This document shows, piece after piece, positions 9,625 to 10,346 of a stretch of 64,000 nucleotides of DNA; position 1 is the first letter of the stretch; each line of letters begins with the position of its first letter. A model generated the notes under the pieces. That model ran no database searches and had not been told where the DNA came from. It was given only the letters and a program-made list of their open reading frames with translations. The position numbers were made by a program, and so were the translations under genes. Origin of the DNA: Candidatus Synechococcus calcipolaris G9 (GTDB taxonomy: Bacteria > Cyanobacteriota > Cyanobacteriia > Thermosynechococcales > Thermosynechococcaceae); NCBI RefSeq assembly GCF_029582805.1, contig NZ_JAKKUT010000001.1, positions 365,068 through 429,067 on the forward strand, in the 5' to 3' direction.

Positions 9625-9770
9625 ATACTCCTTGAGTCACCTGACATCATCAAGCTCTATAAAACTCTAGGGTCAAAACTCCGGGTGTTTACGCCGGAGG
9701 GCAAGCAAAATGTTAATATATTTTTTACTAGAATCTAAATTTTCTCCAGTTTTTAGCTTGTCAATTAGGA

Positions 9771-9778
9771 GCGATCGC
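9771..9778. repeat. HIP1 octamer GCGATCGC between ribosome site and start codon
   Basis: HIP1 palindromes are scattered through the window, for example at 3868-3875, 15713-15720 and 15817-15824, often within GGCGATCGCC. This one overlaps the AGGAG (9767-9771) and ends one base before the ATG of the repeat protein. HIP1 abundance is a hallmark of many cyanobacteria. Confidence 0.9.
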
Positions 9779-9779
9779 C

Positions 9780-10346
9780 ATGACGACATCAGAAACCCCA
9801 AAGGAAGAAACGCCCACAACCCCGGCCAAATCCACCCCCCGCACAAGCTCCCGATCCTCGCGGAGTACCACCACCACCGCCAAGGAAAACAGTGGTCAAA
9901 TGGTCTCCCTGGCTGAAAAAACTGCCTCCCTTGCCCCCACCACCCCTGGGAATAAAGTAACGGATTTCACTGTTTGGCAAACCTTTAATAGTGCCGGTCT
10001 CCGGCCCATTGCCAATGATTTAGTAGAAGTGGTGGGAACCATTCAGGATGCCGGGCTCCGCCCCATTTTATCCAGTGGCCTCCAGGTTTTTGATACGATC
10101 AACTCCGCCGGTCTGCGCCCCATCATTACTACCGATTTCCATGCGATCGATACGATCAATATCATGGGAGTCCGCCCTATTTGCGCCGATAACTTTGAAA
10201 TTGCTGAAATTGTGAATTGGATGGGAATGCGTCCAATCATTTACAGTGGCCTCCAGATTAGTGAAACCTACTATTCCGCCGGAGAACGTCCCGTTGCCTC
10301 CAATGTGATTGACAATTCCTCTCTGTTGATGGGGTATTTAGACTAA
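9780..10346 (+). CDS. Unknown protein of six 19-residue GLRPI repeats
   Basis: I do not recognise a named family. Residues 1-65 are low in complexity, rich in Thr, Ser, Pro and Lys, and probably disordered. Residues 66-179 are six tandem 19-residue units with the pattern xDTINSAGLRPIxxxxLxV; the invariant core is G-x-RP followed by I or V. The last nine residues, SSLLMGYLD, are not part of the repeat. There is no signal peptide or membrane segment. A good AGGAG precedes the ATG at 9780. It has no partner genes: the MFS gene upstream ends 155 bases away and the next genes are on the opposite strand. A short-repeat scaffold or binding protein is possible, but that is inference. Confidence 0.85.
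   Translation: MTTSETPKEETPTTPAKSTPRTSSRSSRSTTTTAKENSGQMVSLAEKTASLAPTTPGNKVTDFTVWQTFNSAGLRPIANDLVEVVGTIQDAGLRPILSSGLQVFDTINSAGLRPIITTDFHAIDTINIMGVRPICADNFEIAEIVNWMGMRPIIYSGLQISETYYSAGERPVASNVIDNSSLLMGYLD
9975..10316 (+). repeat. Six tandem 57-bp coding units (19 residues each)
   Basis: Units begin at 9975, 10032, 10089, 10146, 10203 and 10260. Units 1-3 share AGLRPI, unit 4 has MGVRPI, unit 5 MGMRPI, unit 6 AGERPV. The DNA copies have drifted, so the repeat is old and kept at protein level. Confidence 0.9.

Follow-up and report, generated by a model that had tools for sequence, protein, structure and literature searches.

What kind of protein is encoded at positions 9780-10346 of the window, the stretch of 64,000 nucleotides from Candidatus Synechococcus calcipolaris G9 analysed here, and what does it do in the cell? 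The first-pass annotation of this DNA had pointed to an array of short repeats in the protein and had proposed no function for it. The gene (9780-10346, plus strand) runs from ATG to TAA, stop included, and codes for 188 amino acids. The protein is called GRPI in the following.

The translation start is preceded by a ribosome-binding site (TAGGAG) that overlaps HIP1 octamer GCGATCGC at 9771-9778; both are read from the sequence at 9766-9779 on the plus strand, the HIP1 site covering part of AGGAG. Start region AGGAGCGATCGCCATG is common to most Thermosynechococcus orthologues read. The initial remark that a HIP1 site lies by the start codon is thus correct as to position, but no functional weight can be given to it; since 72 HIP1 sites occur in the 64-kb window, its presence at this start is unremarkable. 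Promoter and terminator scanning at the gene gave no signal above chance.

The first 62 residues (9780-9965, plus strand) form a slightly basic head in which Thr, Ser and Pro account for 52% of residues. Judging from its composition and from its variable length, this head is probably disordered. It is the Thr/Ser/Pro segment of the earlier description, where its length was given as 65 residues; the segment is there, but it is nearer 62. The N-terminus is hydrophilic, and hydropathy analysis of GRPI revealed no signal peptide, no membrane segment and no hydrophobic N-terminal stretch.

Residues 64-177 (9969-10310, plus strand) consist of six 19-residue units around G-x-R-P-I/V. RP dipeptides are located at residues 75, 94, 113, 132, 151 and 170, with spacing of exactly 19, while in 20,000 shuffles of residues 59-188 the longest run never exceeded two. 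The six tandem units described at the outset are therefore borne out. Mean identity among them is 36% at the amino acid level and 49% at the nucleotide level, and no 57-base array was detected at the gene by Tandem Repeats Finder. In codons for the conserved G, R and P, no copy differs from another at positions 1 and 2, and position 3 agrees in only 31% of comparisons. Because the first two positions are fixed and the third is free, selection acts on the protein. The last unit, RPVASNVIDNSSLLMGYLD (residues 170-188; 10287-10343, plus strand), ends with LMGYLD and is the most conserved part of the whole family; it is probably a docking or capping motif. This near-invariant C-terminus had been overlooked in the first-pass annotation.

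The host genome contains one copy of the gene, and orthologues in three Thermosynechococcus genomes are 66% identical to it. Search with the single sequence retrieved matches in 118 of 386 Cyanobacteriota genomes; with a profile built from 48 members, this number rose to 122, distributed over 26 cyanobacterial families. The repeats are conserved across all 26 families and vary in number, which answers the earlier call for a comparison of repeat number among cyanobacteria: most homologues have four to seven RP motifs, some have more, and 328 of 389 RP-to-RP intervals equal exactly 19 residues. Over 274 units, in which R and P are fixed by the anchoring itself, all but two have I or V at position 3, and 264 have G at position 18. 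Positions 8, 10, 14 and 16 are mostly hydrophobic, and residues within each pair are separated mainly by polar ones.

The C-terminal consensus after the last RP reads [VI]ASN-x-[IV]DD-xxx-LMG[FY][LI]D. In 69 of 79 homologues compared, the protein ends exactly 19 residues after R of the last RP. All 69 of these tails contain the R, P, N and final D, and L-M-G-[FY]-[LI] is nearly invariant in them. The dN/dS of the repeats lies between 0.03 and 0.24 in the pairs compared, and in most pairs the head evolves faster than the repeats. The repeats are thus under strong purifying selection. Together with the codon-position pattern, these values confirm the original suggestion that DNA copies have diverged while the GxRP core is kept by selection on the protein.

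Some profile matches (G389, G390, G131, G056) contain in-frame stops, which may lie upstream of the coding frame or may break the gene. A second, acidic type of repeat (IDG-x-RPI-xxSDLEI, with tail often DY[VI]D) was noticed at loci L036, L047, L088 and L090-L095. This type occurs in some cyanobacteria, possibly alongside the main one, and partly on large plasmids of the Nostoc group. Phage or mobile origin of GRPI was considered and rejected, as no homologues were found in viral contigs or phages, and on plasmids of the Nostoc group only the second (DGxRPI) type was seen.

No Pfam-A or NCBIfam match over curated cut-off was obtained for GRPI of the window, and the 48 family members gave only scattered weak matches in these collections, none over cut-off. 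PDB search with the 48-member profile yielded no match up to E 10. These results support the view, taken in the first-pass annotation, that the 19-residue unit stands outside named repeat families. A literature search for the 19-residue GxRP repeat itself found nothing. AlphaFold2, supplied with four sequences only, returned two models too poor to be used (pLDDT 33 and 37), whose strands nonetheless show a period of about 19 residues. The alternation of hydrophobic positions (3, 8, 10, 14 and 16), together with the conserved R-P and G18, fits stacked beta turns. This residue pattern suggests a beta-solenoid or an extended multivalent scaffold.

We examined the neighbourhood of GRPI genes. In the window, a sugar-porter MFS gene and a DUF202 gene are the neighbours. 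In 11 families, uvrB lies upstream of the GRPI gene and divergent from it at a distance below 600 bp, always in the same orientation, and no other neighbour is kept as widely. Such an arrangement might be expected if GRPI, coupled to uvrB, took part in nucleotide excision repair or regulated it. The two genes are nevertheless apart in many families, including that of the window, and in the three loci of symbiotic spheroid bodies that were read, uvrB is intact (669 aa) beside the remains of GRPI. Since uvrB outlives GRPI in symbionts, we regard a role in repair as very unlikely. Among clusters of GRPI neighbours, no recurrent ccm or rbc gene was found, and in the window's genome 169 kb separate rbcL from GRPI. 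In several genomes (loci L040, L043, L051, L068, L078, L080, L081, L083 and L085), GRPI is followed by two genes, one for a short lipoprotein-like protein (weak DUF6658) and one for an unnamed protein of about 170 aa. Gene order at a Synechocystis-like locus (L062) is uvrB, GRPI, purN, a 240-aa protein, ycf46, a methyltransferase and a CAAD-like protein, the genes being named by eye from their sequences, without family search.

By the gene numbers of Synechocystis, the uvrB/purN/ycf46 order presumably puts GRPI at slr0476. Because slr0476 takes the same place in this order as the orthologue at L062, it is probably a member of the GRPI family. The uvrB gene of Synechocystis is sll0459 (PMC5101192). 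The slr0476 product is described as an 'unknown protein' and is listed in the RbcR regulon together with rbcLXS, ccmK2K1LMN, sbtA and ndh genes (PMC12014562); its transcript drops under iron deprivation (PMC3516471). This expression evidence is taken from single tables of other papers, and the slr0476 literature found deals with expression alone, namely the RbcR regulon and responses to iron and solvents. In 600 bp upstream of GRPI genes, the RbcR motif ATTA(G/A)-N5-(C/T)TAAT has no exact match and is not enriched, and near matches are at chance level; rbcL of Cyanothece PCC 8801 (G143), used as control, carries the motif. Since no direct RbcR site was found, the regulon listing of slr0476 may be indirect.

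Distribution of GRPI was then set against that of carboxysomes. The window's class comprises 186 of the 386 genomes, 173 with psbA and 13 without. CsoS2, a marker of alpha-carboxysomes, is present in 57 genomes, all from one family. GRPI matches were found in 122 of the 129 genomes of the oxygenic class outside this family (about 95%, three damaged symbiont copies included), as against none of the 57 alpha-carboxysome genomes and none of the 200 genomes of other, non-oxygenic classes. BMC shell proteins are present in all 80 carriers of GRPI that were tested. As CsoS2 is absent outside one family, we infer that they belong to beta-carboxysome shells.

Seven of the 129 genomes have no GRPI match (G051, G085, G241, G177, G330, G159 and G372). 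Five genomes with rubisco and BMC proteins do without it, namely two each from families f18 and f25, and G159; GRPI is thus not required for the beta-carboxysome. G372 has psbA, psaAB and rubisco and lacks BMC proteins, CsoS2 and GRPI alike. This organism (family f12, 2.2 Mb in 70 contigs) apparently fixes carbon without a carboxysome. G051 could have been read as a joint loss of rubisco and GRPI, and was set aside as uninformative because a 24,396-aa open frame in its ccmM region suggests a long masked stretch. Counted by lineage, GRPI is present in 26 families with beta-carboxysomes and absent from three lineages with them, the respective numbers without beta-carboxysomes being zero and four (Fisher P = 0.0009); this value is rough, as lineages are few, the unit of counting was settled with the data already in view, and strong genome reduction accompanies at least two of the four losses.

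Would the same distribution be expected if GRPI served oxygenic photosynthesis in general, in upkeep of photosystem II, phycobilisomes or thylakoids, and not carboxysomes? The protein is confined to oxygenic cyanobacteria and their non-photosynthetic descendants, and photosystem II was lost along with rubisco in spheroid bodies and UCYN-A, as such a function would predict. All 57 alpha-cyanobacteria carry psbA without GRPI, however, and G372 likewise retains both photosystems and rubisco without GRPI. On balance, a general photosynthetic role seems rather improbable to us. In the window's own genome, a psaA/psaB-type gene outside the window (G000:C5:11966-14114) is covered by two separate matches and contains a stop, which indicates a frameshift, an insertion or an assembly error.

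Symbionts show what becomes of GRPI when carbon fixation is lost. Two genomes of our set are spheroid bodies, of Epithemia turgida (G147) and Rhopalodia gibberula (G183), and the above-mentioned Cyanothece PCC 8801 is their free-living relative (PMC5638926). The GRPI match contains three stop codons in G147 and five in G183. In G268, two RP dipeptides are changed to CP and the C-terminal motif is gone, and in G416 no GRPI match was found. The same four genomes have lost rbcL and shell genes or retain them in broken form. G387 and G388, putative UCYN-A, keep photosystem I and are devoid of rubisco, shell protein and GRPI.

These losses could alternatively reflect genome reduction in general, since the gene set of spheroid-body symbionts has shrunk from about 4,400 to about 1,700 (PMC5638926). 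GRPI would then be a scaffold of the cytosol with a structural or housekeeping function, perhaps a small beta-solenoid polymer of bactofilin type, and would have nothing to do with carbon fixation. Its beta-like periodicity is consistent with such a protein, and one paralogue matches the bactofilin family weakly (PF04519; 14.6 bits where the cut-off is 27.9, E 0.039). Genome reduction would, however, be expected to spare a housekeeping gene more often when about 95% of relatives retain it, and neither the RbcR-regulon listing nor the absence of GRPI from the whole alpha family is easily accommodated. We consider this explanation unlikely, yet a serious contender.

Because GRPI is missing or damaged in genomes that have lost carbon fixation or carboxysomes, we propose it as a candidate component of the carbon-fixing machinery that has been overlooked so far. 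Our preferred reading, put forward tentatively, is that GRPI may be a cytosolic repeat protein, specific to cyanobacteria, with a function in CO2 fixation as a multivalent adaptor in species with beta-carboxysomes. It is favoured by the distribution, including universal presence of BMC proteins in tested carriers, by decay of GRPI where CO2 fixation is lost and its absence from carboxysome-less G372, and by the regulon listing of slr0476. Several observations weigh against it: the symbionts in which GRPI is lost have undergone massive genome reduction, members of f18 and f25 and G159 have rubisco and BMC proteins without GRPI, neither RbcR motif enrichment nor a recurrent ccm or rbc neighbour was seen, slr0476 is identified by gene order, and AlphaFold2 with four sequences gave no usable model.

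In the adaptor that we envisage, the units would either pile up into a short beta-solenoid or form an extended series of binding segments, and each would offer an identical R-P edge to a partner. The head, probably disordered, could space or tether the protein, and the LMG[FY][LI]D motif might dock it on one specific partner. GRPI would so act within the carbon-fixing machinery, be it on the carboxysome, rubisco or their regulator. That a protein found in about 95% of the non-alpha oxygenic cyanobacteria sampled, and strongly selected, so far has neither name nor assigned function represents a gap in a well-studied group. If the link to CO2 fixation is true, GRPI is a component so far missing from the beta-carboxysome or from its control.

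Among known systems, the repeat of AIDA-I/TibA autotransporters is beta-helical, and its unit likewise has 19 residues. The NCBIfam model of AIDA-I matches six of the 48 GRPI members weakly (best E 6.7e-5), the TibA structure is matched by GRPI of the window with E 0.061, and weak matches to enterobacterial autotransporters were also obtained. Unit length and alternation of hydrophobic positions are shared as well. GRPI might on these grounds be suspected to be a surface or secreted adhesin. An AIDA-I-type profile nevertheless scores GRPI of the window with 15.8 bits against a cut-off of 1200, and the GRPI family profile has no PDB counterpart. Moreover, GRPI is of cytosolic type, lacking a signal peptide or other hydrophobic segment; its 188 residues leave no room for a beta-barrel, its core is RP in place of Gly-Gly repeats, and it is confined to cyanobacteria. 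The resemblance suggests similar turn length, not kinship, and we judge an adhesin to be extremely improbable. With bactofilins and other beta-solenoids, GRPI would share the short periodicity of stacked turns, but it has no significant sequence match to them.

CsoS2 is the repeat scaffold of alpha-carboxysomes and combines short conserved motifs with a distinctive C-terminus. By analogy, GRPI could be an assembly or cargo-linking scaffold of beta-carboxysomes, whose units would make repeated contacts with shell protein, CcmM or rubisco in the manner of the CsoS2 repeats, and whose LMG[FY][LI]D tail would serve as anchor; this more specific proposal we hold to be decidedly doubtful. CsoS2 frames in the genomes analysed here are about 800 aa long, in contrast to the 188 aa of GRPI, which has no sequence match to any Pfam family. 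The likeness is only one of how the two might work, both being conceivable as repeat scaffolds with a special C-terminus, and in their distribution they are mirror images of each other.
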